Below are positions 3,028 to 20,399 of a DNA stretch of 32,461 nucleotides, piece after piece. The position numbers and the translations under genes are program-made. Below the pieces are notes generated by a model that made no database searches, had not been told where the DNA came from, and saw nothing but the letters and a program-made list of their open reading frames with translations. Source of the stretch: Gemmatimonadales bacterium (lineage in GTDB: Bacteria; Gemmatimonadota; Gemmatimonadetes; Gemmatimonadales; GWC2-71-9); NCBI GenBank assembly GCA_025928955.1, contig JAICNA010000006.1, positions 1 through 32,461 on the forward strand. The letters are read 5' to 3'. Within the stretch, counting starts at the first letter, position 1, and each line of letters starts with the position of its first letter.

Positions 3028-3528
3028 TCAGTCGCTCTCCCAGCCGGTCGGCCGCTGGCGTCCCTTGAGCACGCGCGTGGCGATGTTCTCGATGGGCCCG
3101 CCGAAGAGGAGCGCGGCGAGCGTGAGGAGGAGACCGATGACCGCGGAGCGCCACATCCCGGCACCGAACGCCACCGCAATGCAGGCCGTGACCCAGACCG
3201 AGGCCGCCGTGGTGAGGCCCTGTACCGCGCGCGCATCCGGCAGCTTGAGGATCACGCCGCCACCGATGAAGCCGATCCCGGTGATGACGCCTTGGATGAC
3301 GCGGCTCACCGAGTCGGGGTTGAACGTTCCCGGAAGCGCCGCGATCTCCATCGTGACGAGCGTGACGAGGCACGCGCCGATCGCCACGAGCCCGTGGGTG
3401 CGCACGCCGGCCGGCTTCCCGCGCAGCTCGCGGTTGATGCCGAGCACGAATCCCGCGAGCATCGCCGCGGCCAGCCGCGCGAAGACTTCGTCGTTGCCGC
3501 CTACCAGATCTGCGAGCTGGGTTCCCAC
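3028..3528 (-). CDS. MgtC/SapB family membrane protein
   Basis: A 166-residue hydrophobic protein with the core MgtC motifs 'LAAAMLAGFVLGINRELRGK', 'GVRTHGLVAIGACLVTLV' and 'GVITGIGFIGGGVILK', and about five membrane segments. It is the short SapB-like form without the C-terminal soluble ACT-like domain of Salmonella MgtC. MgtC-type proteins are linked to survival at low Mg2+ and control of the F1F0 ATPase in pathogens; in environmental bacteria the role is unclear. The start is GTG at 3528, preceded by a purine-rich 'GAAAGGATC' ribosome-binding site. It lies 10 bp after the tryptophan 2,3-dioxygenase stop, so it may simply ride on that transcript. Confidence 0.92.
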   Translation of the reverse strand: MGTQLADLVGGNDEVFARLAAAMLAGFVLGINRELRGKPAGVRTHGLVAIGACLVTLVTMEIAALPGTFNPDSVSRVIQGVITGIGFIGGGVILKLPDARAVQGLTTAASVWVTACIAVAFGAGMWRSAVIGLLLTLAALLFGGPIENIATRVLKGRQRPTGWESD

Positions 3529-3538
3529 TGCGATCCTT

Positions 3539-4321
3539 TCAGCCGCGTTCGGCGCCCTGAATCAGGTTGCGGGCTTCCCAGAGCTCGGGGAAGACCCGGC
3601 GTGCCACGGTTCCACGGAGGTACGATGCCCCGTCGCTGCCACCGGTGCCGGGGCGCCCGCCGATGATGCGCTCCACCATCTGCACGTGCCGCATGCGCCA
3701 GAGCGTCACCATCTCGTCGAAGTCGAGCAGCGCCTCGGCGAGGAGAAAGAGCTCCATCTGCGCCGCCGCACTCCGGTAGAGCGAGGCGACACCTTCGGCA
3801 TCGGCGGTGAAGCCGCGGCGGACGAGCAGGTCGTGAAAGGCGGCACGGAGCGTCCGGCCCCCGAGGCGGCGCTCGAGGCGCGCCCGCTGTGCCGAGCCGC
3901 GCTCGTACGACTCGAGGTACCGAGGCTCGGCCAGGCCGGCGAGGAATTCGATCTCGCGGAACTGCGCCGACTGGAACCCGCTCGCGGGCATGAGGTGATC
4001 GCGAAAGGCGAGGAAATCCATCGGCGTCATCGTCTCGAGCACGGCGACCTGCGCCACCAGCACGCGCTGGATCTCGTGGCAGCGCCGGAGGAGGCGGAGT
4101 CCGCCGAGGACGTCGTCGCGGTCGAGATGGGTGACGATCGCATCGAGCTCGTGCAGGAGCTGCTTGAACCAGAGCTCGTACACCTGATGGATGATGATGA
4201 AGAGCGTTTCGTCGTGCTGCGCAGGATCGGAACGGAGCTGCTGGAGCGCGGTGAGATCGTCCACGCGCAGATAGCCGCCGTAGCTGAGCTTCTGTTCGCT
4301 GTCGGGCCGGCCGAAGGGCAT
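3539..4321 (-). CDS. kynA: Tryptophan 2,3-dioxygenase (TDO)
   Basis: Heme enzyme that inserts O2 into L-tryptophan to give N-formyl-L-kynurenine, the first step of the kynurenine route. The ATG at 4321 gives 260 aa, close to bacterial TDOs; the ORF-track start at 4441 lies inside the SGNH gene. Visible hallmarks are 'LFIIIHQVYELWFKQLLHEL' with active-site His45, 'FRDHLMPASGFQSAQFREIE' with substrate-binding Arg107, and 'RMRHVQMVERIIG' with the proximal heme ligand His212, followed by 'GTGGSDGASYLR'. It is the last catabolic gene of the minus-strand operon, 16 bp after the SGNH hydrolase. Finding TDO on the same strand as the anthranilate-CoA genes ties the cluster to tryptophan rather than to free anthranilate alone. 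Confidence 0.96.
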   Translation of the reverse strand: MPFGRPDSEQKLSYGGYLRVDDLTALQQLRSDPAQHDETLFIIIHQVYELWFKQLLHELDAIVTHLDRDDVLGGLRLLRRCHEIQRVLVAQVAVLETMTPMDFLAFRDHLMPASGFQSAQFREIEFLAGLAEPRYLESYERGSAQRARLERRLGGRTLRAAFHDLLVRRGFTADAEGVASLYRSAAAQMELFLLAEALLDFDEMVTLWRMRHVQMVERIIGGRPGTGGSDGASYLRGTVARRVFPELWEARNLIQGAERG

Positions 4322-4337: not shown

Positions 4338-4988
4338 TCAGGAAGAGGGAAAGATGGCGTGCGTACCGAGTGCCGCCAGTGCATGCGGAAGCGCGAGCTC
4401 CGCCCAGCGCGCGTACATGGCGCCGGCCGGGTGCAGGCCATCCGCGGCGCTCAGGTGCGGCGCACCTGCCGCGAGCCGCGACGCGGGCAGCACGTCGACG
4501 TAGCGTGCGGCGGCGCGCCCGGCCTCCTCGCGATTCACGCGGTTGAACTGCTCGATCTCGGCCGCGATGCGCGCGCGATCGCGCCCCTCCGCGAACGGCG
4601 TGACGCCCCAGTCGGGAATCGCGAGGACCAGCACGCGACCGGGGGCGCCGCCCGCGAGATTCACGGCCCTCGCGAGCAGCGTCCGGAACTGGTCACGGTA
4701 CTCGGCGAGGCTCCGGCCGCGATACTGGTTGTTCACGCCGACGAGGAGGGAAACCAGGTCGTACGGCGGGCGGAGGTGCGCCGAGTCGATGCCCGCCTGC
4801 AGCTCGTCGGTCGTCCAGCCCGTCGTCGCGACGATCTCGGGGTGCGCGACCCGGACTCCGCGAAGCGCGAGCAGCCGGACCAGATGATCGGGCCAGCGCT
4901 CCGCTGCCTCCACCCCTTCGCCGATCGTGTAGCTGTCGCCGAGCGCGAGAAACCTGAAGGCCTGCGGCTCGGTGCGCGATGACGTCAT
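4338..4988 (-). CDS. SGNH/GDSL-type hydrolase
   Basis: A 216-residue cytoplasmic-looking esterase-type hydrolase (no signal peptide). Block I is 'FLALGDSYTIGEG' with nucleophile Ser19, block III is 'VGVNNQY' with Asn86, and block V is 'DGLHPAG' with Asp183 and His186. The ATG at 4988 overlaps the stop of the alpha/beta hydrolase by four bases (ATGA). Family members hydrolyse esters, thioesters or acetyl groups. Here it sits directly before tryptophan 2,3-dioxygenase in a cluster with no canonical KynB-type formamidase, so a role in N-formylkynurenine deformylation or in thioester hydrolysis is conceivable. That is inference from position only. Confidence 0.9.
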   Translation of the reverse strand: MTSSRTEPQAFRFLALGDSYTIGEGVEAAERWPDHLVRLLALRGVRVAHPEIVATTGWTTDELQAGIDSAHLRPPYDLVSLLVGVNNQYRGRSLAEYRDQFRTLLARAVNLAGGAPGRVLVLAIPDWGVTPFAEGRDRARIAAEIEQFNRVNREEAGRAAARYVDVLPASRLAAGAPHLSAADGLHPAGAMYARWAELALPHALAALGTHAIFPSS

Positions 4989-5797
4989 TCCGCGTGCCGC
5001 GCGAGGAAATCGAGGGTCGCGGCGCGGCAGAGCCCGGGCTGGTCGGCCCACATGTCGTGCGTCGCGTCCGGGACCCGCACCCGCTCCACGTGCCGCAGCG
5101 TGCGGGCCAGGAGGTCGTCGACGAAGCGATGGAGGGGAACCGTCCGGTCCGCGCTGAGCATGAGCGCCGGCATGCGGAGCGCGGCGACGTCCTCGGCCGC
5201 CAGCCAGGGCCAGGGGTCCTCCGACACGGTGAAGGCTTCCCAGTCCCGCGCGTTGCGCATGACCCGCTCGCGAACCCGGTCGGGGAGACGCGCGAAGGTG
5301 CCCTCGCCCACGAAGTAGTCGGTGACGTACTGCATCGCTTCTTCCGGGGCGTGGCGCCGGAAGGCATCGCCTGCGGGGTGCCACATCTCGGCGAGGAAGC
5401 GATCCCAGCCGGCACGCCCCTGCGGATGCTCGCGCGCCCAGGGGAGGAGCGGTGGTTCCGCGAGCGTGAGCGTTCGGACGAGCGTGGGGTGGGCAACGGC
5501 GCAGAAGAGCGCCGCCACGCCGCCGATCGAATGCGATACGAGGTGCACCGGTCCGAGCTCGAGCGCCGTCAGCAGCTCGGCCAGATCCTCCCCGTCGGTG
5601 CGTGCCGAGTAGTCCGGAACGATCGGGCCGTTCCGGTTCGGCTCCGCGTAGCGCCGACTGTAGGCGATGACGAGGTGCCGCTCGGCGAACGCCGCCAGGT
5701 GCGGCGTCCAGTAGGTGAGATCGTTTCCGCCGCCGTGCACGAGGACGACCGGCTCGCCGGCGCCGCTCTGCACGTAGTGCAGTGCCGCCCGGCTCAT
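4985..5797 (-). CDS. Alpha/beta-fold hydrolase
   Basis: A 270-residue alpha/beta hydrolase. The oxyanion-hole motif 'LVHGGGND' lies near residue 20, the nucleophile elbow is 'LVSHSIGGV' (Ser90), and the acid and base are Asp217 (MLSADRTVP) and His247 (PDATHDMW), giving an intact triad. I chose the ATG at 5797 (MSRAALHYVQSGAG) because the fold begins there; an in-frame ATG six codons upstream at 5815 is also possible. The stop overlaps the SGNH start. In this operon it could be the kynurenine formamidase (mammalian AFMID is an alpha/beta hydrolase) or a hydrolase acting on a ring-opened CoA intermediate. Sequence alone does not separate these options. Confidence 0.9.
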   Translation of the reverse strand: MSRAALHYVQSGAGEPVVLVHGGGNDLTYWTPHLAAFAERHLVIAYSRRYAEPNRNGPIVPDYSARTDGEDLAELLTALELGPVHLVSHSIGGVAALFCAVAHPTLVRTLTLAEPPLLPWAREHPQGRAGWDRFLAEMWHPAGDAFRRHAPEEAMQYVTDYFVGEGTFARLPDRVRERVMRNARDWEAFTVSEDPWPWLAAEDVAALRMPALMLSADRTVPLHRFVDDLLARTLRHVERVRVPDATHDMWADQPGLCRAATLDFLARHAE

Positions 5798-5831
5798 GCA
5801 TGCGATCCGGCTCATCCGGCGGCGTGCGCGC

Positions 5832-6701
5832 TCACGCGTCCCCGTCCCAGCGATAGAAGCCTTCGCCACTCTTCCGCCCGAGTTTCCCCTCCGACACCAT
5901 GCGCCTGAGCAGCTCAGGCGCCCGGAACACTTCGCTGCCGAGCGCCGTGTGGAGATGGTCGGCGATGGCGAGCCTGACGTCGAGCCCGACGATGTCACCG
6001 AGGCGGAGCGGACCGATGGGGTGGTTGTAGCCGAGCTCCATGGCGCGATCGATGTCCGCGGCCGAAGCGACCCCCGCCTCGAGCATGCGCACCGCCTCGA
6101 GCCCGAGTGCCAGGCCCAGGCGACTCGTCGCGAACCCGGGGGAGTCCCGCACGACGATTGCGGTCTTGCCCAGCGACTCGGCAAACGCGCGCGCGGCCTC
6201 CACGGCCGTGTCCGACGTCGCGGCGCCGCGCACGATCTCGACGAGGCGCATCGCGGCGACGGGGTTGAAGAAGTGCATGCCGACGACGCGCTCAGGACGG
6301 GGGACTGCCGCGGCGATGTCGGAAATGGAGAGCGACGAGGTGTTGCTGGCCAGGATGGCGTGCGGCGGTGCCGCCGCATGGGCGGCGGTGAAGAGCGACC
6401 GCTTGAGCTCCATCCGCTCCGGCACCGCCTCGATCACGAGGTCCGCCCCGGCCGCCGCGGATTCGAGCGCCGGAAACGTGGTGAGGCGGGCAAGGCCGGC
6501 GTCACGATCCGCAACCGAGAGCTTCTTCCGCTCGATCGCCGCGGCGAACGATTCGGCGATGCGATCGTGCGCGGCGAGCAGGGCGTCCCGGTCGGCGTCG
6601 GCGAGCGCCACCTCATAGCCGGCGGCCAGCGCAACGTAGGCGATCCCGTGTCCCATCGTGCCGGCGCCGATGACGGCCACACGGCGGATCGCCGACGTCA
6701 C
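5832..6701 (-). CDS. 3-hydroxyacyl-CoA dehydrogenase (NAD-dependent)
   Basis: Oxidises an L-3-hydroxyacyl-CoA to the 3-ketoacyl-CoA with NAD+. The N-terminal Rossmann domain starts with 'VAVIGAGTMGHGIA' (residues 8-21). The conserved 'ASNTSSL' and 'GMHFFNPVAAM' carry the catalytic His143 region. The C-terminal helical domain has 'MELGYNHPIGPLRLGDIVGLD' and ends 'GRKSGEGFYRWDG', standard for the HBD/PaaH group. The length of 289 aa fits single-function enzymes. The start is taken as the GTG at 6701 because it makes a GTGA overlap with the thiolase stop. In the pathway it probably works just before the thiolase on the ring-opened dicarboxyl-CoA. Confidence 0.94.
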   Translation of the reverse strand: MTSAIRRVAVIGAGTMGHGIAYVALAAGYEVALADADRDALLAAHDRIAESFAAAIERKKLSVADRDAGLARLTTFPALESAAAGADLVIEAVPERMELKRSLFTAAHAAAPPHAILASNTSSLSISDIAAAVPRPERVVGMHFFNPVAAMRLVEIVRGAATSDTAVEAARAFAESLGKTAIVVRDSPGFATSRLGLALGLEAVRMLEAGVASAADIDRAMELGYNHPIGPLRLGDIVGLDVRLAIADHLHTALGSEVFRAPELLRRMVSEGKLGRKSGEGFYRWDGDA

Positions 6702-7894
6702 TCGCACCGCTCCACCACGACGGCGATGCCCTGGCCGACGCCGATGCACATCGTGGCCAGCCCATACCGGCCGCCGCTCCGACGGAGCTCGTGCACGAGC
6801 GTCGTGAGGATGCGCGACCCGCTGGATCCGAGCGGATGCCCGGAGGCGATCGCGCCGCCGTTCACGTTGACGCGCGCCGGGTCGAGGCCCAGTTCGCGAA
6901 TGCAGGCGATGGCCTGGGCTGCGAACGCCTCGTTCAGCTCGATGAGCGCGAGGTCCTCGACCGCGAGGCGCGCGCGCGTGAGCGCCTTCCGCGTGGCGGG
7001 AACCGGCCCGATGCCCATGATCTCGGGCGGCACCCCGGCGACGGCGCTCGCCAGGATGCGCGCCATGGGGCGCAGTCCCCCCGCTGTCGCGGCCGACCGG
7101 CTCATCACGAGAAGCGCACTCGCGCCGTCGTTGATGCCGCTCGCGGAGCCTGCGGTGACGGTTCCTCCTTCGCGGAACGCGGGCCGGAGCCTGCCGAGCG
7201 ATTCGACCGTCGTATCGGGGCGCGGGTGCTCGTCGGTCGAGACGACGATCTCGCGGCCGCGCTCCCGCACCGTGACCGGTACGACCTCGCCGGCGAAGCG
7301 GTCCGCTGCCTGGGCGGCGGCCGCACGGCGCTGGCTCTCGTGCGCGAAGCGGTCCTGCTCCTCCCGCCCGATCCCATACCGCTCGGCGACATTCTCGGCC
7401 GTCTCACCCATCGAGACGGTCCAGTGTGGGGGGAACGCAGGGTTCGTGAACCGCCAGCCGATCGTCGAGTCGGCGAGCGACGGCGCCGAGCGCGGAAACG
7501 GCGTTTCGGGCTTGAGCATCACCCAGGGCGCGCGCGACATGCTCTCGACGCCGCCGGCGATGAAGCATTCGCCCTCGCCGGCCCGCACGGCCTGCGCAGC
7601 GCTCGCCACGGCCTGCAGGCCCGAGCCGCAGAGCCGGTTCACCGTCTGCCCCGCGACTTCCACGGGGAGGCCGGCGAGGAGAAGCGCCATCCGCGCCACG
7701 TTGCGCGAGTCTTCGCCGGCCTGATTGGTGCAGCCGAGGATCACGTCCTCGATCCGGGTGGGATCGACGCCGCTTCGCGCCACGAGGGCGCGAATGGCGT
7801 GCGCCGCGAGGTCGTCCGGCCGCACGCGCGCGAGCGCGCCGCCATGCCGGCCCACCGGCGTCCGGACCGCATCCACGATGACCGGATCATTCAT
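6698..7894 (-). CDS. Acetyl-CoA acyltransferase (thiolase, PcaF/PaaJ-like)
   Basis: A 398-residue degradative thiolase that cleaves a 3-ketoacyl-CoA with CoA to release acetyl-CoA. The acyl-accepting cysteine is in 'VNRLCGSGLQAV' (Cys89), the catalytic His is in 'ASGHPLGSSGSR' (His353), and the second cysteine is in 'TMCIGVGQG' (Cys383). The overall layout resembles beta-ketoadipyl-CoA thiolases, which fits a last step on a C6/C7 dicarboxyl-CoA intermediate, but substrate length cannot be decided by eye. The ATG at 7894 lies eight bases inside the RidA gene, and the stop overlaps the 3-hydroxyacyl-CoA dehydrogenase start (GTGA). Confidence 0.95.
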   Translation of the reverse strand: MNDPVIVDAVRTPVGRHGGALARVRPDDLAAHAIRALVARSGVDPTRIEDVILGCTNQAGEDSRNVARMALLLAGLPVEVAGQTVNRLCGSGLQAVASAAQAVRAGEGECFIAGGVESMSRAPWVMLKPETPFPRSAPSLADSTIGWRFTNPAFPPHWTVSMGETAENVAERYGIGREEQDRFAHESQRRAAAAQAADRFAGEVVPVTVRERGREIVVSTDEHPRPDTTVESLGRLRPAFREGGTVTAGSASGINDGASALLVMSRSAATAGGLRPMARILASAVAGVPPEIMGIGPVPATRKALTRARLAVEDLALIELNEAFAAQAIACIRELGLDPARVNVNGGAIASGHPLGSSGSRILTTLVHELRRSGGRYGLATMCIGVGQGIAVVVERCE

Positions 7895-8297
7895 CCGCGA
7901 TCACCGCAGTGGCCTCGATCTCGACCAGCGCGAGCGGCTCGAGGAGGCCGGCGACGATCACGAGCGACATCGCCGGATAGTGGCGGCCGATGACGGTGCG
8001 ATACGCCTCGCCGATCTCGCGGCGGCGCTGCTCGTACTCCTTCCGCTCGACGACATACCAGGTGAGCCGCACGAGGTGCCGCGGCTCGGCTCCCGCCGCG
8101 CGCAGCACGGCGACCACGTTCTCGAGCGCCCGGCGCACCTGGCCCACCATGTCGTGCGCCTCGAACGTCTGCGTGGCCGGATTCCAGCCGGTCTGGCCGG
8201 CCACGCTCACGATGCGCCCGCGCGCGCTCACTCCATTCGCATAGCCGGATGGCGGAAGCCAGCCCTCGGGCTGGATGATGCGGTGCTCCTCGCTCAC
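7887..8297 (-). CDS. RidA/YjgF-family protein
   Basis: A 136-residue Rid-fold protein ('IVSVAGQTGWNPAT', 'VRRALENVVAVLRAAGAEP', 'LALVEIEATAVI'). Rid proteins hydrolyse reactive enamines or imines, and the related AmnD-type protein deaminates 2-aminomuconate, so a family member in an amino-aromatic pathway makes sense. However, the arginine that binds the imino acid carboxylate in RidA (Arg105 of E. coli, in 'PARS') appears to be Met here ('YPAMSLV'). The canonical 2-iminopropionate deaminase chemistry is therefore doubtful. The start is GTG at 8297, overlapping the ligase stop as GTGA. A ring-derived enamine with a CoA thioester instead of a free carboxylate would not need that Arg; this is inference. 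Confidence 0.92.
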   Translation of the reverse strand: MSEEHRIIQPEGWLPPSGYANGVSARGRIVSVAGQTGWNPATQTFEAHDMVGQVRRALENVVAVLRAAGAEPRHLVRLTWYVVERKEYEQRRREIGEAYRTVIGRHYPAMSLVIVAGLLEPLALVEIEATAVIADE

Positions 8298-9940
8298 GCA
8301 CCCTCCTCGCGCAGCACGAAGCGCTGCAGCTTGCCGGTGGCCGTTCGCGGGAGGGCGGTGACGAACTCGACCTGCCGCGGATACTTGTGCGGCGCGATCT
8401 CCCGCTTGACGTGGTCCTGCAGCTCCTTCGCCATCGCCGGCCCCGGCTCGTGGCCCTCACGCAGGACCACGAACGCCTTGACGACCTGGCCGCGCTCCTC
8501 GTCCGGCACGCCCACCACGCCGCATTCGGCGACGGCCGGATGCTCGAGGATCACGCTCTCCACCTCCGGACCGGCGATGTTGTGCCCCGACGAGATGATC
8601 ATGTCGTCGGTGCGCGCCTGGTAGACGAAGTAGCCGTCGGCATCGATCACGTACGAATCGCCGGTGATGTTCCAGCCGTTCTGCACGTAGGCGCGCTGCC
8701 GCTCGACGTCGTCGAGGTAGCGGCATCCGGTCGGGCCCCGTACGGCAAGGCGGCCGATGGCACCCTGCGCCACGTCGTGGCCGTCCTCGTCGACCACCCG
8801 TGCGTCGTAGCCGGGCACGGGCTTTCCGGTGGCGCCGGGCTTCATCTCGGCGGGCCGTGCGCTGATGAAGATGTGGAGCATTTCGGTGGAGCCGATCCCG
8901 TCGATGATGCGGATGCCCGTGGCGCGCTCCCAGGCCTCGAACGTAGAGGCAGGCAGCGTCTCGCCCGCGGAGACGCACTTCCGGAGTGTCGGCACGCCTT
9001 CGGTGCCGAGCAGTGGAAGCATGGCGCGATACGCCGTGGGCGCCGTGAAGCTGATCGTGGCCCCGAAGTCACGGATGCCCTGCAGGAGGTGGGGTGGCGC
9101 GGCCTGCTCGAGCAGCACGGCGCTCGCGCCGATCCGCATCGGAAAGAGCACGAGTCCGCCGAGTCCGAACGTGAACGCCAGGGGCGGGGAGCCGCAGAAG
9201 ACGTCGTCGGGGCCCGGCTCGAGGATGTGCGGCGGAAAGCAGTCGCAGATGGCCAGCACGTCGCGGTGGAAATGCATCGTGCCCTTTCCCTTGCCGGTCG
9301 TACCGGACGTGAACGCGATGAGCGCCACATCGTCGGCCGCGGTGTCGACGTTCCGGAAGGTGGGCGGGCGCCGCCGCATGAGCGACTCGAGCGAGTCCGC
9401 CGCATCGCTGTTGAAGCAGACGACGCGGGCGTTCGCTCGCGCGGCGCCGGTGCCGGTGCGCTCCATGCCGGCGCGGCAGTCGCCCTCGAGCCGGGCATCG
9501 GTGAGGGCGAGGCTGATCGCGGCGCGGTCCGCCGTGTAGCAGATCTCGCGCGGGCGGAGGAGTGGCATGGTGCAGACCACGACGCCCCCTGCCTTCAGCA
9601 CCGCGAACCAGCAGGCGACCATCATCGGATTGTTCGGTCCGCGGAGCAGGACCCGCCCACCCGGGACGAGACCGAGATCGGTGACGAGGACGTTGGCGAT
9701 CCGGTTCGCGCGCTCGAGCAGGTCGCCGTAGGTCCAGACGCCGCCGGGAAAATGGAAGAGTGGATCGTCGCCGTGGCCCTTCGCGACCATCGCGTCGAGC
9801 AGCTCGGTGGCGCAGTTGAGGCGCGGAGGATAGGCGAGCCCCGCCGCGCGGTCGTAGCGCATCTCGGGCCAGAGGACGCGGGGCGGGAGCCGGTCGCGGC
9901 AGAACGTGTCCACGTGCCCCGACGGGACGCGGGCGGTCAT
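8294..9940 (-). CDS. abmG: 2-aminobenzoate-CoA ligase (anthranilate-CoA ligase)
   Basis: Adenylate-forming enzyme predicted to convert anthranilate, ATP and CoA into 2-aminobenzoyl-CoA. It is 548 aa from the ATG at 9940, the usual length for this class. Motifs in order are the P-loop '[16 protein letters not shown]' (about 210-225), '[11 protein letters not shown]', 'NITGDSY', '[19 protein letters not shown]' and the C-terminal '[12 protein letters not shown]' with catalytic Lys537. The 'STEMLHIF' and '[11 protein letters not shown]' signatures are those of benzoate/2-aminobenzoate-CoA ligases. Substrate choice is supported mainly by the adjacent AbmA-type monooxygenase/reductase; benzoate or salicylate cannot be excluded. 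ATGA overlaps with the dehydrogenase upstream and GTGA with RidA downstream indicate one translation unit. Confidence 0.9.
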
Positions 9941-11097
9941 GCGCGCTCCAGGAGCTGCGCCGCGATCACAAGGCGCTGGATCTCGCTCGTGCCCTCGTAG
10001 ATCCGGAGTGCCCGGATCTCGCGGTACAGCCGCTCGACCGGAGCGCCCGACACGACGCCGAGGCCGCCGAACAGCTGCACGGCATCGTCGATGACGCGCT
10101 GCGCCGCTTCCGTGGCGTGGAGCTTGGCCATCGCGGCCTCGAGTGTCACGCGCTCGGCGCCCATGTCCTTCGTCCAGGCGGCCCGGTAGACGAGCAGCGC
10201 GCTCGCGTCGATGGCGGTGGCCATGTCGGCGAGGCGTGCCTGCGTGAGCTGGAAGCCGGCGAGGGTGCCGCCGGCCACGCTCCGTGCCCGACAATGCGCG
10301 GTCGCCTCTGCGAGCGCGCGACGCGCCATCCCGGTGGCCGCGGCGCCGACCGTGGCGCGGAAGACGTCGAGAGTCCCGAGCGCGACGCGGAGGCCCTTGC
10401 CGGCGTCACCGACGGCGGCGTCGGCCGCGACACGGCATTCCCGGAAGGCAATCGTTCCGAGCGGGTGCGGGGCGATGACGTCGATCCGCTCCGTGACGGA
10501 CAGCCCCGGATTGTCGGCGTCCACCATGAAGGCGCCGAACGCGCGCTCGCCCAGGTCGGGGGTACGGCAGAAGACCACGTAGTGATCGGCGATGCCGGCA
10601 TTGGAGATCCACGTCTTCTCGCCGTCGATGACCCAGCCGTCGCGGTCACGGCGTGCCGCCGTGCGCATCGCGGCGACATCGCTCCCCGCGTCCCGCTCGG
10701 AGAGTGCGAAGGCCGCGATCCGGCGTCCATCGGCCACGTCGGGGAGGTACCGCCGGCGCTGCGCATCGGTGCCGTACAGGGACAGCGGCCCGGTGCCGAG
10801 GCCCTGCAGCGCAAAGCAGAACTCGACGAGCGGATCATGACGTGCGAGCGTCTCACGGATGACGCAGAGCGACCGGACGTCCACCCGCTCGCGCACTCCA
10901 CCGTACGCGGCGGGCACGACGTGGCGCAGCCAGCCGGCCTCGCCGAGCCGCTGCACGTGGGCGCGGCAGCGCGCATCGAGATCGTCCGCGTGCGCGGCAC
11001 CGGCGAGCTCGCGCGTGGCCCAGGCCTCCACGTCGGCACCGAGGGTGCGGTGGCTCTCGTCGAAGAACGGCCAGGCGAGATGGGCGTGCGGCTGCAC
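9937..11097 (-). CDS. Acyl-CoA dehydrogenase
   Basis: FAD enzyme that alpha,beta-dehydrogenates an acyl-CoA. The start is GTG at 11097, which shares one base with the crotonase stop (TAGTG); the ORF-track start at 11445 lies inside the crotonase gene. This gives 386 aa. '[15 protein letters not shown]' (about 130-144) and '[14 protein letters not shown]' are the FAD-binding strands. The catalytic glutamate is kept in '[12 protein letters not shown]' (Glu368), and 'QLFGGLGVV' is the C-terminal signature. In the anthranilate pathway it would act on a non-aromatic cyclic or ring-opened CoA ester made after the AbmA reaction. The electron acceptor (ETF) is not encoded in the window. Confidence 0.94.
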
Positions 11098-11903
11098 TAG
11101 TCGCCCTCGAACTTCGGCGCCTGCTTCGCGACGAACGCGCGGTACGCCCGGGAGAAATCCTCCGACTCCATCAGCTCCGCCTGGACCTCCGCCTCGTAGT
11201 CGATCGCCTCGTCGATCCCCATGTCCCACTCCTCGTGCAGCGCGCGCTTGGTGGCGGCATGCGCGAGCGTCGGGCCCGCGGCGAGCGTGCGGGCGAGCTC
11301 GACCGCCGCCGGCAGGAGACCCTCGGGCTCGGCGAGCCGATTGTAGAAGCCCCAGCGCTCGGCTTCGACGCCGTCCATGAAGCGGCCGGTGTACAGCAGC
11401 TCGGCGGCGCGGCCGTGCCCGACGATGCGGGGGAGCATGGCGCACGCGCCCATGTCCGCGCCGGAGAGCCCGACGCGCACGAAGAGAAACGCGACGCGGC
11501 TCGCGGGGGTGCCGATGCGCAGGTCGGAGGCCATGGCGAGGATCGCCCCGGCGCCGGCACAGACCCCGTCCACCGCGGCGACGATCGGCTGGGGGCAGGC
11601 GCGCATCGCATGCACCAGCTCGCCGGTGAGGCGCGTGAACGCGATGAGCTCCTCGTCGCAGCCGTCTTCCTTCAGCTGTACCAGCGGCCCGATGATCTCG
11701 TGCACGTCCCCGCCGCTGGAGAAGTTGCCGCCCGCGCCGGTGAGCACGACCGCGCGGACGTCCGGGTTCTCGCGCAGCGCCCAGAAGGTGTTCGCCAGCT
11801 CGCGATACGACTCGAAGGTGAGCGGATTCTTCCGCTCGGGCCGGTTGAGCGTGATCGTCGCGACGCGCTCCTCGAGCGACCAGAGAAAGTGCTTCGGATT
11901 CAT
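11097..11903 (-). CDS. Crotonase-superfamily protein (enoyl-CoA hydratase/isomerase-like)
   Basis: A 268-residue crotonase fold with the first oxyanion loop '[15 protein letters not shown]' and the second '[21 protein letters not shown]'. Aligned by eye to rat mitochondrial enoyl-CoA hydratase, the two catalytic glutamates (Glu144, Glu164) fall on Ile121 and Arg143. The later '[18 protein letters not shown]' keeps an Asp (Asp150) that occurs in a crotonase subgroup with altered chemistry. It may therefore not be a simple hydratase; isomerisation or hydrolytic C-C cleavage of a cyclic 1,3-diketo-type CoA ester are possibilities. The ATG at 11903 follows the SDR stop by 16 bp, and its stop overlaps the acyl-CoA dehydrogenase GTG. 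Confidence 0.9.
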
Positions 11904-11919: not shown

Positions 11920-12698
11920 TCATACCTCGCCCCCGGAAACGGGAATCACCCGGCCGTTGATCGCGTCCGCCGAGGGCGCCGCGAGCCAGGCGACCACGTG
12001 CGCCACTTCCTCGGGGCGAATGATCGTGCCTCGGGGATTGTGCCGGATCACCATCGCGCGCGCCTCCGCGGCGCTCTTCCCGAGACCGGTCATGATGTTC
12101 TTCTCGGCCTGGATCGACATGCCGGACTCGGTGTAGCCGGGACAGACGGCATTCACCGTGATGCCCGCCTTGCGCACCTCGGCCGCGAGCGAGCGCGTCA
12201 ACCCGACGAGCGCGTGCTTCGAGGCGCTGTACGCCGTGATGCGGCCATACCCCTTGAGGCCGGCCATCGAGGCAACGTTGACGATCCGGCCGCCTTTCGC
12301 GTCGAGCATCGCCGGCAGGACTTCGCGGATGCAGGCGACGGCCCCGAGGAGGTTCACGGCGAGCGCCTCGTTCCAGACCTCCGGCGTCGTCTCCATGAAC
12401 GGGGCCGCCGTGGCAGTTCCGGCGTTGTTCACGAGGAGCCAGGGGCGGGGAAACCGGTCCCGCGATTCCGCGAACGCCGCCGTGACGCTCGCCGGATCGG
12501 CCACGTCGCACGCGATGGCGAGCACCTCGGACGTCTTCTTGCGAAGCGCGACGGCATGCGCGCCGAGCGCCGCGGCGTCGCGCCCCATGAGCGTGAGCGT
12601 GGCTCCCTGCGCGGCGAGCTCGGCGGCGATCGCGGCGCCGATCCCCCGGGCGCCGCCGGTCACGATCGCGTGCCGGCCCGAGAGCGGAAGCGAGAGTG

Positions 12699-12702
<4 letters not shown>
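11920..12702 (-). CDS. Short-chain dehydrogenase/reductase (SDR)
   Basis: A 260-residue classical SDR. The cofactor loop is '[16 protein letters not shown]' (residues 15-30), followed by 'LVNNAGTA', the catalytic triad region '[27 protein letters not shown]' (Ser, Tyr and Lys all present) and '[12 protein letters not shown]'. It would oxidise or reduce a hydroxyl/keto group with NAD(P). With both an SDR and a 3-hydroxyacyl-CoA dehydrogenase in the operon, one plausible split is that the SDR handles the ring ketone/alcohol formed by AbmA and the other handles the ring-opened chain. The start ATG at 12702 overlaps the AbmA stop by four bases, so its production is tied to that enzyme. Confidence 0.93.
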
Positions 12703-15007
<2,305 letters not shown>

Positions 15008-15008
<1 letters not shown>

Positions 15009-16177
15009 CAGAGGAGTCCCGACACGGGATTCGGCTCGCCCTCGGCGAAGCGCGAGGGCCTGAGCGGCGTCGTATCGAGCGTCGTGGCGCGGCCCTCGGT
15101 GATGATCTCGGCGAGGAGGTGGCCAAGCGCGGGCGCGTGCATCACGCCGTGGCCCGACGAGCCGTTGATGAAATAGAAGTTGCCGCACTCGGGCGCGGGA
15201 CCGAGGATCGCGTGCTTGTCCGGGGAGACTTCGTAGAGCCCGCCCCATGCGCCGCTCCGGTCGAGCGGAACGCCGGCCAGGACGGGCACACGCGCGGCGG
15301 CCTTCGCGGCCACCTCGTCGATCCACGGCGTTTCGACGCGGCAGTCGTACGGGTCCGCCGCGGATCCGGGTGTCGGCCACGCGAGCAGCACTCGCCCGTC
15401 GCGCACCCGTAGATGGAAACCGTCGCCGGCAAAGATCGTCATCGGCATCCCGGCAGGAAGGAGGTCACAGGGCATGGTCGGGACGATGCAGCGCCGGAGC
15501 GGCTCGATCGGCAGCGGGGCCCCCGCGAGCGCAGCCACACCCGCCGCCCAGGCGCCCGCCGCATTGACCACCGCACCCGCCTCGATCCGCCCGCGCGTCG
15601 TCCGCACCGCGGTGATACGAGTCGTCCCCGGCGCGCCCTTGCGCTCGAACCCCGTGACCTCCGTTTCCCACATGGTGCGAGCGCCGCGGCGGCGGGCGTC
15701 GGCGAGATACCCGGCGAGCATCGCCAGGGGGCGGATGAATCCATCGGTGGGACACCAGGCGCCTCCTGCGATTCCCTGAGGCGACAACGCCGGATTCAGC
15801 TGGAGCACTTCCGCCGCGTCCACCTCGCGCGACTCGAGCAGGCCGGCCGCGTGCTGGACCGGCAGTCCACGACGCAGCTCCGCCAGTTCCCATTCGGTTC
15901 CGGCGACCCAGAGGTAGCCTGCGGGCAGGTATCCGGGATCGGCACCGACTTCATCGGGAAAGCGGCGCAGCTTCTCGCGGGTGAGGAGCGAGAGTCGGAC
16001 ATTGATCGCGGTGCCGTACTGCGCCCGGTACCCGCCTGTGGCCCGGCCGGTACTGCCCTCGCCGGGTCCCGCACCGCGATCCACGATGACGATATCGCGC
16101 CAGCCGCGCGTGGCGAGGTGCCAGGCCACGCTCGCGCCGACGACGCCGCCTCCCACGATGACGATCGGGCCGTCCAT
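15008..16177 (-). CDS. DAO-family FAD-dependent oxidoreductase
   Basis: A 389-residue flavoprotein of the D-amino-acid oxidase/glycine oxidase/sarcosine oxidase group. The dinucleotide-binding motif is '[21 protein letters not shown]' at residues 5-25. '[13 protein letters not shown]' follows, then '[17 protein letters not shown]' and the C-terminal '[19 protein letters not shown]' that closes the FAD site. Such enzymes oxidise C-N bonds of secondary or primary amines to imines. Being second in the anthranilate operon, joined by one-base TGATG overlaps on both sides, it may act on an amino-bearing intermediate or on a related N-substituted aromatic; no specific substrate can be named. No signal peptide is seen. 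Confidence 0.9.
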
Positions 16178-16596
16178 CACGCCGGCGTGAAGATGTGCTC
16201 GGGGTTCCGGAAACTCTTGAACTCGAGCGCGTTGCCGCTCGGATCGAGGAAGAACATCGTGGACTGCTCGCCCGGCTGCCCCTCGTACCGCACGCGCGGC
16301 TCGATGATGAACTCGATCCCTGCGGCGCGCACACGCGCGGCAATGGCCTGAAAGCGATCCCATTCGACCACGGCGCCGAAGTGGGGCATGGGCACGGCGA
16401 TGCCATCCACCTTGCCGGCATACACCGTCGGTGCCGGGGCGCCGGTCGTGTGCGCCGAGATCTGGTTGCCGAAGAAATCGAAATCCACCCACGTCTCGGT
16501 ACTGCGCCCTTCGGTGCAGCCGAGCACGCCTCCATAGAAGCGACGGGTCGAGTCGAGATCCTTCACGAAGAAGGCAAAGTGAAACGGCTGGGGCAT
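16177..16596 (-). CDS. VOC-superfamily protein (glyoxalase/dioxygenase fold)
   Basis: A 139-residue vicinal-oxygen-chelate protein beginning MPQPFHFAFFVKDL at the ATG at 16596, preceded by an AGGAG ribosome-binding site. Two beta-alpha-beta-beta-beta units are recognisable ('RRFYGGVLGC', then 'MFFLDPSGNALEFKSF'). Likely metal ligands are His6, the His in 'VPMPHFG' and the Glu in 'NALEFKSF', so a divalent-metal enzyme is plausible. VOC proteins include glyoxalases, epimerases and ring-cleaving dioxygenases. It is the first gene of the tightly coupled catabolic string (70 bp after queG), which suggests a real pathway role, but the reaction is unknown. The ORF-track start at 16728 extends back into queG and was rejected. 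Confidence 0.9.
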   Translation of the reverse strand: MPQPFHFAFFVKDLDSTRRFYGGVLGCTEGRSTETWVDFDFFGNQISAHTTGAPAPTVYAGKVDGIAVPMPHFGAVVEWDRFQAIAARVRAAGIEFIIEPRVRYEGQPGEQSTMFFLDPSGNALEFKSFRNPEHIFTPA

Positions 16597-16666
16597 AGGC
16601 TCCTGCGGTGGGAGAGCGTCGCGACCTGCGAAAGATGTCGCCAGTGACCCGCCGGATGGAAGGCGG

Positions 16667-19250: not shown

Positions 19251-20399
19251 ATGACGCTCGCCTCACCCGGAGCGGTGAAGACGTATCGGGACGAGTTTCC
19301 GATCTTCCGGCACTCGACGTACCTCAACAGCTGCTCCCTCGGCGCGCTCAGCGTGCGGGCACGGGCGCGGGTGAACGAGTGCCTCGATCTCTGGGAGAAC
19401 CGGGGCGCGCCTGCCTGGTACGAGATCTGGTGGGCGGCGCTCGCCGACCTCCGAACCCGCTACGGCCGGATCGTCGGGGCGGCCGGCGAGGAAATCGCTC
19501 TCCACCCGCACATCTCGGCTGCGCTGTCGGTCGTCGGCGAGTCGCTCGACTACGGCACCCGGCGAAAGGTCGTCGTCACCAGCCTCGACTTCCCGACGAT
19601 CGGCTATCAATGGATGGCCAAGCGCCAGGCCGGGGTCGAGGTCGTCGTCATCGAGAGTCCGGACGGCGTCCGCGTACCGCTCGAGCTGTTCGAGCGCGCG
19701 GTGGACGACCGCACGGCACTGGTGGCTACGAGCCACGTCTTCTTCACCAGCGGCGCCATCCAGGACGTGGCGGCGATCGCCGAGATGGCCCACCGCAAGG
19801 GGGCGCTCTGCCTGGTGGACGGCTACCAGGCCGCCGGCCAGCTGCCGGTGGATGTGAAGGCGCTAGGCGTCGACTTCTACTGTGGTGGGGGGCTCAAGTG
19901 GCTCCTCGGCGGGACGGGCGTCGCATTCCTCTACGCAGCGCCGGACGTGACGCCGAAGCTCTTCCCGCGAGTCACCGGATGGTTCGCCCATCGGGAGCAG
20001 TTCCGGTTCGACACGCGGAGCCTCGAGCTGCACGCCGATGCCCGGCGGCTCGAGCTCGGCACGCCGCCGATCATGCCGGTCTACGCGCAGCGCGGCGGGC
20101 TCGAGATTCTCGAGGAGCTCGGCAGCGAGGCCATCCGCCGGAGGACGGCGGAGCTGACGGAGGACCTGATCGAACTCGCCGAGGCGCATGGCCTCCGGCC
20201 GCGCGTCGCGCCGGTGGCAGCGGAACGCTCCGCGATCGTCATGCTGCCGAGCGACGATCCGCACCGCGACGTCGCGATGCTCGCCGCCGCCGGGATCGTG
20301 ACCGACGCCCGTCCGGGACACGTCCGCGTCTCCCCATACTTCTACAACGTGCCCGACGATCACCGGGCCCTCATCGAGCACCTGACGCGTGAACGATAA
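19251..20399 (+). CDS. kynU: PLP-dependent class V enzyme, probable kynureninase
   Basis: A 382-residue fold-type I PLP enzyme of the aminotransferase class V/kynureninase family. 'HVFFTSGAIQDVAAIAEMAH' and 'LVDGYQAAGQLPVDVKALGVDF' carry the cofactor Asp190. The Schiff-base lysine is in 'GGGLKWLLGGTGVAFLY' (Lys216), where kynureninases have a similar K-Y/W-L-N/G-G-G/T pattern. Kynureninase cleaves L-kynurenine to anthranilate and alanine, exactly the missing link between the TDO and the anthranilate-CoA ligase coded on the other strand. By sequence alone a cysteine desulfurase-like or isopenicillin-epimerase-like enzyme cannot be excluded, so the symbol is tentative. It is probably leaderless and is the first gene of the plus-strand operon. 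Confidence 0.75.
   Translation: MTLASPGAVKTYRDEFPIFRHSTYLNSCSLGALSVRARARVNECLDLWENRGAPAWYEIWWAALADLRTRYGRIVGAAGEEIALHPHISAALSVVGESLDYGTRRKVVVTSLDFPTIGYQWMAKRQAGVEVVVIESPDGVRVPLELFERAVDDRTALVATSHVFFTSGAIQDVAAIAEMAHRKGALCLVDGYQAAGQLPVDVKALGVDFYCGGGLKWLLGGTGVAFLYAAPDVTPKLFPRVTGWFAHREQFRFDTRSLELHADARRLELGTPPIMPVYAQRGGLEILEELGSEAIRRRTAELTEDLIELAEAHGLRPRVAPVAAERSAIVMLPSDDPHRDVAMLAAAGIVTDARPGHVRVSPYFYNVPDDHRALIEHLTRER

Follow-up and report, generated by a model that had tools for sequence, protein, structure and literature searches.

A candidate serine-type kynurenine formamidase of the SGNH hydrolase family encoded next to tryptophan 2,3-dioxygenase in a Gemmatimonadales bacterium

The window, by which we mean the whole stretch of 32,461 nucleotides analysed here from the genome of a Gemmatimonadales bacterium, carries a minus-strand gene array that ends in a gene for tryptophan 2,3-dioxygenase and, on the plus strand, a kynureninase-like gene. 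The features on which the analysis draws are the following:

3539..4321, minus strand: tryptophan 2,3-dioxygenase (TDO), 260 aa (PF03301, E 2e-61)
4338..4988, minus strand: SGNH/GDSL hydrolase (SGNH), 216 aa, candidate kynurenine formamidase (Lipase_GDSL_2, E 9e-24)
4985..5815, minus strand: alpha/beta hydrolase (ABH), 276 aa (Pfam Abhydrolase_6/1)
5832..6707, minus strand: 3-hydroxyacyl-CoA dehydrogenase, operon member
6698..7894, minus strand: 3-oxoadipyl-CoA-type thiolase, operon member
7887..8297, minus strand: RidA-type enamine/imine deaminase
8294..9943, minus strand: benzoate-CoA-ligase-type enzyme, presumably a 2-aminobenzoate-CoA ligase (TIGR02262, E 3e-107)
9937..11091, minus strand: acyl-CoA dehydrogenase
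11097..11903, minus strand: enoyl-CoA hydratase (NF006107, above cut-off)
11920..12687, minus strand: short-chain dehydrogenase
12699..14981, minus strand: FAD monooxygenase fused to an NADH:flavin oxidoreductase, presumably a 2-aminobenzoyl-CoA monooxygenase/reductase (PF01494 and PF00724)
19251..20399, plus strand: divergent kynureninase-like class V PLP enzyme (TIGR01814, 105 bits)

The array is compact from the monooxygenase/reductase fusion through to TDO, with gaps of at most 16 nt and many overlapping genes. The stop codon of ABH and the start codon of SGNH overlap in the tetranucleotide ATGA, and 16 nt separate SGNH from TDO; an in-frame ATG at position 5797 offers an alternative start for ABH. 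An earlier note on this DNA had described an alpha/beta hydrolase and an SGNH hydrolase directly before TDO, fused by ATGA and with intact catalytic residues, and the coordinates, motifs and overlap all bear this description out. The genes upstream match the aerobic 2-aminobenzoyl-CoA pathway described for Azoarcus evansii (PMC4539516), so that, taken together, the genes of the array read as a path from tryptophan through anthranilate to central metabolism. On either side of it, an MgtC-family gene lies 10 nt past TDO (3028-3528), as a gene of this family also adjoins TDO in the related genome G139 (L176), and the stretch ahead of the operon (15008-16608) encodes a DAO-type FAD oxidoreductase and a glyoxalase-family (VOC) protein, both of which are kept in G139.

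TDO itself is matched by PF03301 at 208 bits, against a cut-off of 34.9, and by TIGR03036 at 231 bits, under the equivalog cut-off of 390.7. It fits the family model in two stretches, a pattern shared by most TDOs of the sister family but not by most of those in its own family. The kynureninase-like gene likewise falls below the equivalog cut-off of its model, TIGR01814, which stands at 246 bits. Its best solved relative is the kynureninase 1qz9, however, so the encoded protein may still work as a kynureninase, and a 70% identical gene lies near the SGNH-TDO pair of G139. This gene likely encodes the kynureninase that would act in the step after the formamidase. A 43% relative directly adjoins TDO in another genome (G082, L347).

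A formamidase is required between these two enzymes, and bacteria that have TDO and lack KynB have no obvious gene for one. KynB was reportedly defined in papers from 2003. The earlier note saw no KynB-type formamidase at the locus and suggested checking the rest of the genome for kynB; a search with PF04199, the model for KynB-type cyclases, gave zero matches in the window's genome, so that the statement stands for the assembled part, the assembly being 78.5% complete. At this level of completeness, the absence of KynB from this genome is by itself weak evidence. Neither SGNH nor ABH matches PF04199 or TIGR03035. Three further genomes with an SGNH-TDO pair (G099, G139 and G181) are likewise missing from the set of genomes of the order in which PF04199 has a match, with G099 and G139 listed at zero.

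The SGNH protein matches PF13472 at 85 bits, against a cut-off of 32.9, and carries the catalytic residues of the superfamily, with Ser19 in GDSYTIGE, Gly57, Asn86, and Asp183 and His186 in DGLHP. Across 35 homologues, S19, N86, D183 and H186 are invariant and G57 is nearly so. An AlphaFold2 model of high confidence (pLDDT 91.5, pTM 0.89) has a standard SGNH fold, and the nearest structures found with Foldseek are Axe2, GDSL lipases/esterases and TesA, at identities of about 14-26%. These solved neighbours belong to esterases and thioesterases, with no kynurenine formamidase among them, and a search of PDB sequences returned no similar chain. Judged by eye, the protein has no apparent signal peptide. 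Four conserved, family-specific residues (Tyr20, Trp58, Gln88 and Trp195) could line an aromatic pocket.

Four genomes from three genera have SGNH directly adjoining TDO: the window's own, G099, G181 and G139. The order TDO-SGNH-ABH in G099 and G181, two genomes of another genus, is the same as in the window. In G139, which represents a third genus, SGNH-TDO is kept and ABH and the anthranilyl-CoA operon are absent at the locus, where the genes run in the order seen in the window (LDC, the 70% kynureninase-like gene, NDH, queG, VOC, DAO, SGNH, TDO, MgtC); SGNH and TDO thus remain together even though all genes between the window's DAO and SGNH are missing. Since TDO-SGNH-ABH recurs in a second genus, and a third has SGNH-TDO in the absence of ABH, the grouping of a hydrolase with TDO is not a matter of chance.

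The distribution of SGNH relative to KynB was then compared across the 72 sister-family genomes that have TDO. The KynB query was the protein beside TDO in G001, which scores 190 bits with TIGR03035 against a cut-off of 223; KynB was counted at 160 bits or more, together with two partial genes, one in two pieces (G064) and one at a contig end (G172). This revealed 11 genomes with SGNH only, 51 with KynB only, 10 with neither and none with both (Fisher p=1.2e-7). Expressed differently, KynB is present in 0 of 11 SGNH-bearing and 51 of 61 SGNH-less genomes, a replacement pattern that is not absolute in other phyla. When counted by genus, the level at which phylogeny was allowed for, the corresponding numbers (both, SGNH only, KynB only, neither) are 0, 4, 18 and 4 (p=0.0047). 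Wherever the TDO region of a KynB genome was mapped, KynB adjoins TDO, and coordinates place the two side by side in about 35 genomes; no KynB was found in those TDO regions of SGNH genomes of the sister family that were examined. SGNH in this family is not linked to tryptophan genes and sits in two other conserved contexts. Six near-complete genomes of the family have SGNH without TDO; as TDO is also missing from 16 of 67 KynB-bearing genomes, SGNH is no different from the accepted enzyme in this respect. Seven genomes of one genus (g52: G032, G052, G090, G128, G146, G160 and G164) have KynB, and none of the seven has a detectable TDO.

These counts bear on a different explanation, in which an unlinked or unassembled enzyme carries out the deformylation (a KynB encoded in the 21% of the genome absent from the assembly, an AFMID-like protein or another amidase) and SGNH, as an esterase or thioesterase, is linked to TDO by chance. 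The incompleteness of the window's assembly leaves room for such an enzyme, and the ten sister-family genomes that have TDO and neither KynB nor SGNH make further formamidases in the group probable. In G084, which is one of the ten, a larger cyclase is encoded about 3 kb away from TDO (L189, G084:C70; a 261 aa frame matching PF04199 at 137 bits), which may represent yet another formamidase. Nevertheless, PF04199 is listed in none of the four genomes in which SGNH adjoins TDO, and an unrelated esterase would not be expected to exclude KynB or to adjoin kynureninase in another phylum. We therefore regard this explanation as rather unlikely. Two further loci (L196, G069:C10, and L195, G063:C153) hold an array of TDO, KMO-like, kynureninase-like and amidohydrolase genes, in genomes with no PF04199 or SGNH match.

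Outside the order, a scan of contigs from named genomes identified at least 577 confirmed SGNH relatives, with most of the best 80 belonging to Bacteroidota, Chloroflexota and Xanthomonadales; no homologue was found in annotated plasmid records. At 12 Bacteroidota loci, the SGNH homologue lies immediately upstream of a kynureninase gene on the same strand, overlapping it or at most 4 nt away (L257:6572-9898, L218, L225, L232, L251 and others). Of the ten kynureninases scored, eight exceed the equivalog cut-off of TIGR01814 and two reach 223 and 244 bits against 246. The homologue thus adjoins TDO in four genomes and kynureninase at 12 loci of a separate phylum. In the SGNH gene tree, one supported branch splits the kynureninase-adjacent proteins from the other labelled groups, with unlabelled Bacteroidota sequences among them, while the TDO-adjacent proteins do not resolve as a single clade.

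In a subset of 50 genomes with SGNH, 31 have TDO and none has a protein that reaches the TIGR03035 cut-off. Seven contain KynB-like proteins above 100 bits, five of them in Chloroflexota, and these may be real KynB proteins, given that the G001 KynB beside TDO also scores under this cut-off. All 13 Xanthomonadales genomes of this subset have TDO, and none of the 13 has KynB at the TIGR03035 cut-off, the sole match to this model being a 54-bit stretch in one genome.

The Bacteroidota with an SGNH-kynureninase pair differ in that TDO is absent, as judged by PF03301, and in that their SGNH proteins appear by eye to start with lipoprotein or signal sequences. In L257, moreover, an amino-acid-permease-like gene, identified by eye, lies directly upstream of the pair, and organisms such as this one could possibly salvage external N-formylkynurenine. 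The same features would fit an SGNH that belongs to the pathway but whose chief substrate is a related compound with a formyl or acyl group, such as N-formylanthranilate or the formylkynurenine residues of extracellular peptides. The window's group and the Xanthomonadales speak against this, having TDO, which supplies N-formylkynurenine as a substrate, and many homologues that begin at the SGNH domain with no signal peptide apparent by eye. A main role on such a compound is, in our judgement, most improbable.

Turning to ABH, its catalytic motifs are intact (HGGG, SHSIGG, LSADRTVPLH and DATHDMW), in three genomes it is the second gene ahead of TDO, and eukaryotic kynurenine formamidases are themselves serine-triad enzymes (PMC4243253), so that it might have been expected to act in the manner of AFMID or BNA7. 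Moreover, one sister-family genome (G066) has TDO and ABH and shows no match for KynB or SGNH at the thresholds applied. However, among the ABH relatives detected at 1e-30 in 25 of 201 genomes of the order, the best in the sister family (51%; G116, G066 and G120) end a RidA/CoA-ligase/ACAD/ECH array that lacks TDO and SGNH and that extends to the monooxygenase in G116 and G066, placing them within the anthranilyl-CoA operon and away from TDO. Furthermore, G116 and G120 have KynB beside TDO in addition to ABH, while G139 has TDO and SGNH with no ABH-family member above threshold. Sequence relatives of ABH among solved structures at 1e-6 are MCP hydrolase, bromoperoxidases and epoxide hydrolases, and include no kynurenine formamidase. 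Because ABH is found with the anthranilyl-CoA operon in the absence of TDO, and alongside KynB, it is better explained as a part of ring degradation. We accordingly rejected ABH as the main candidate and consider it very unlikely to be the formamidase; it probably takes part in degrading the anthranilyl-CoA ring, perhaps in hydrolytic ring opening or in a thioester step. In genus g28 (L059:10021-10764 and L060:5617-6351), an extra enoyl-CoA-hydratase-like gene, which the window does not have, lies between ABH and the 3-hydroxyacyl-CoA dehydrogenase gene.

According to the earlier note, one or other of these hydrolases might serve as a non-orthologous formamidase. For SGNH this idea gains support from its adjacency to TDO or kynureninase in unrelated lineages and from its exclusion of KynB in the sister family; for ABH, the association with the anthranilyl-CoA operon and the coexistence with KynB weigh against it. 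Taken together, gene order, motifs, predicted fold and phylogenetic distribution make it likely that the SGNH gene at 4338-4988 encodes a serine-type kynurenine formamidase that is neither orthologous nor otherwise related to KynB, with the substrate and chemistry of the protein inferred from these lines of evidence. In the pathway that this suggests, TDO would open the indole ring of tryptophan to give N-formylkynurenine. Ser19 of SGNH, activated by His186 and Asp183, would attack the formamide carbon, with Gly57 and Asn86 forming the oxyanion hole, and the enzyme would release kynurenine first and then formate through hydrolysis of a formyl-enzyme. The candidate kynureninase (19251-20399) would convert kynurenine to anthranilate, which the upstream operon would turn into its CoA ester and degrade, with ABH acting as part of the CoA operon and not in the formamidase step.

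We found no report of an SGNH/GDSL kynurenine formamidase in the freely readable literature that was searched. Whether the family as a whole constitutes an overlooked class of kynurenine formamidases, widespread in Xanthomonadales, Bacteroidota and others and supplying the missing deformylation step of tryptophan catabolism and of tryptophan-to-NAD synthesis in lineages without KynB, we judge from the genomic pattern to be an evenly balanced proposition. If true, it would add an unrelated fold to the enzymes known to deformylate N-formylkynurenine, would simultaneously close a gap in the pathway of many genomes (at least 577 homologous stretches) and would correct the annotation of proteins that are now called only 'SGNH/GDSL hydrolase'.

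The window can be compared with several known systems. As in the aerobic 2-aminobenzoyl-CoA pathway of Azoarcus evansii (PMC4539516), its operon contains a CoA ligase, a flavin monooxygenase/reductase and beta-oxidation-type genes upstream, but here the CoA genes are united in a single array with TDO and two hydrolases. KynB (PF04199/TIGR03035; structures in PMC4243253) shares with SGNH the proposed reaction and the position in the pathway, and adjoins TDO in sister-family genomes where SGNH is absent. KynB is, however, a binuclear zinc enzyme, whereas SGNH has a Ser-His-Asp arrangement, another fold and mechanism, and no PF04199 match. Known SGNH/GDSL hydrolases (TesA, EstA, Axe2 and the Rv0518-family GDSL lipase) have in common with SGNH the fold, the four motif blocks and the catalytic residues, yet these are esterases, thioesterases or lysophospholipases, whereas the window's protein is a proposed formamidase. 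Finally, the eukaryotic kynurenine formamidases (AFMID, yeast BNA7 and Drosophila KFase) resemble SGNH in their serine-type chemistry and in the proposed substrate, but have an alpha/beta hydrolase fold in place of the SGNH fold; ABH has the fold of these enzymes but not the genomic pattern.
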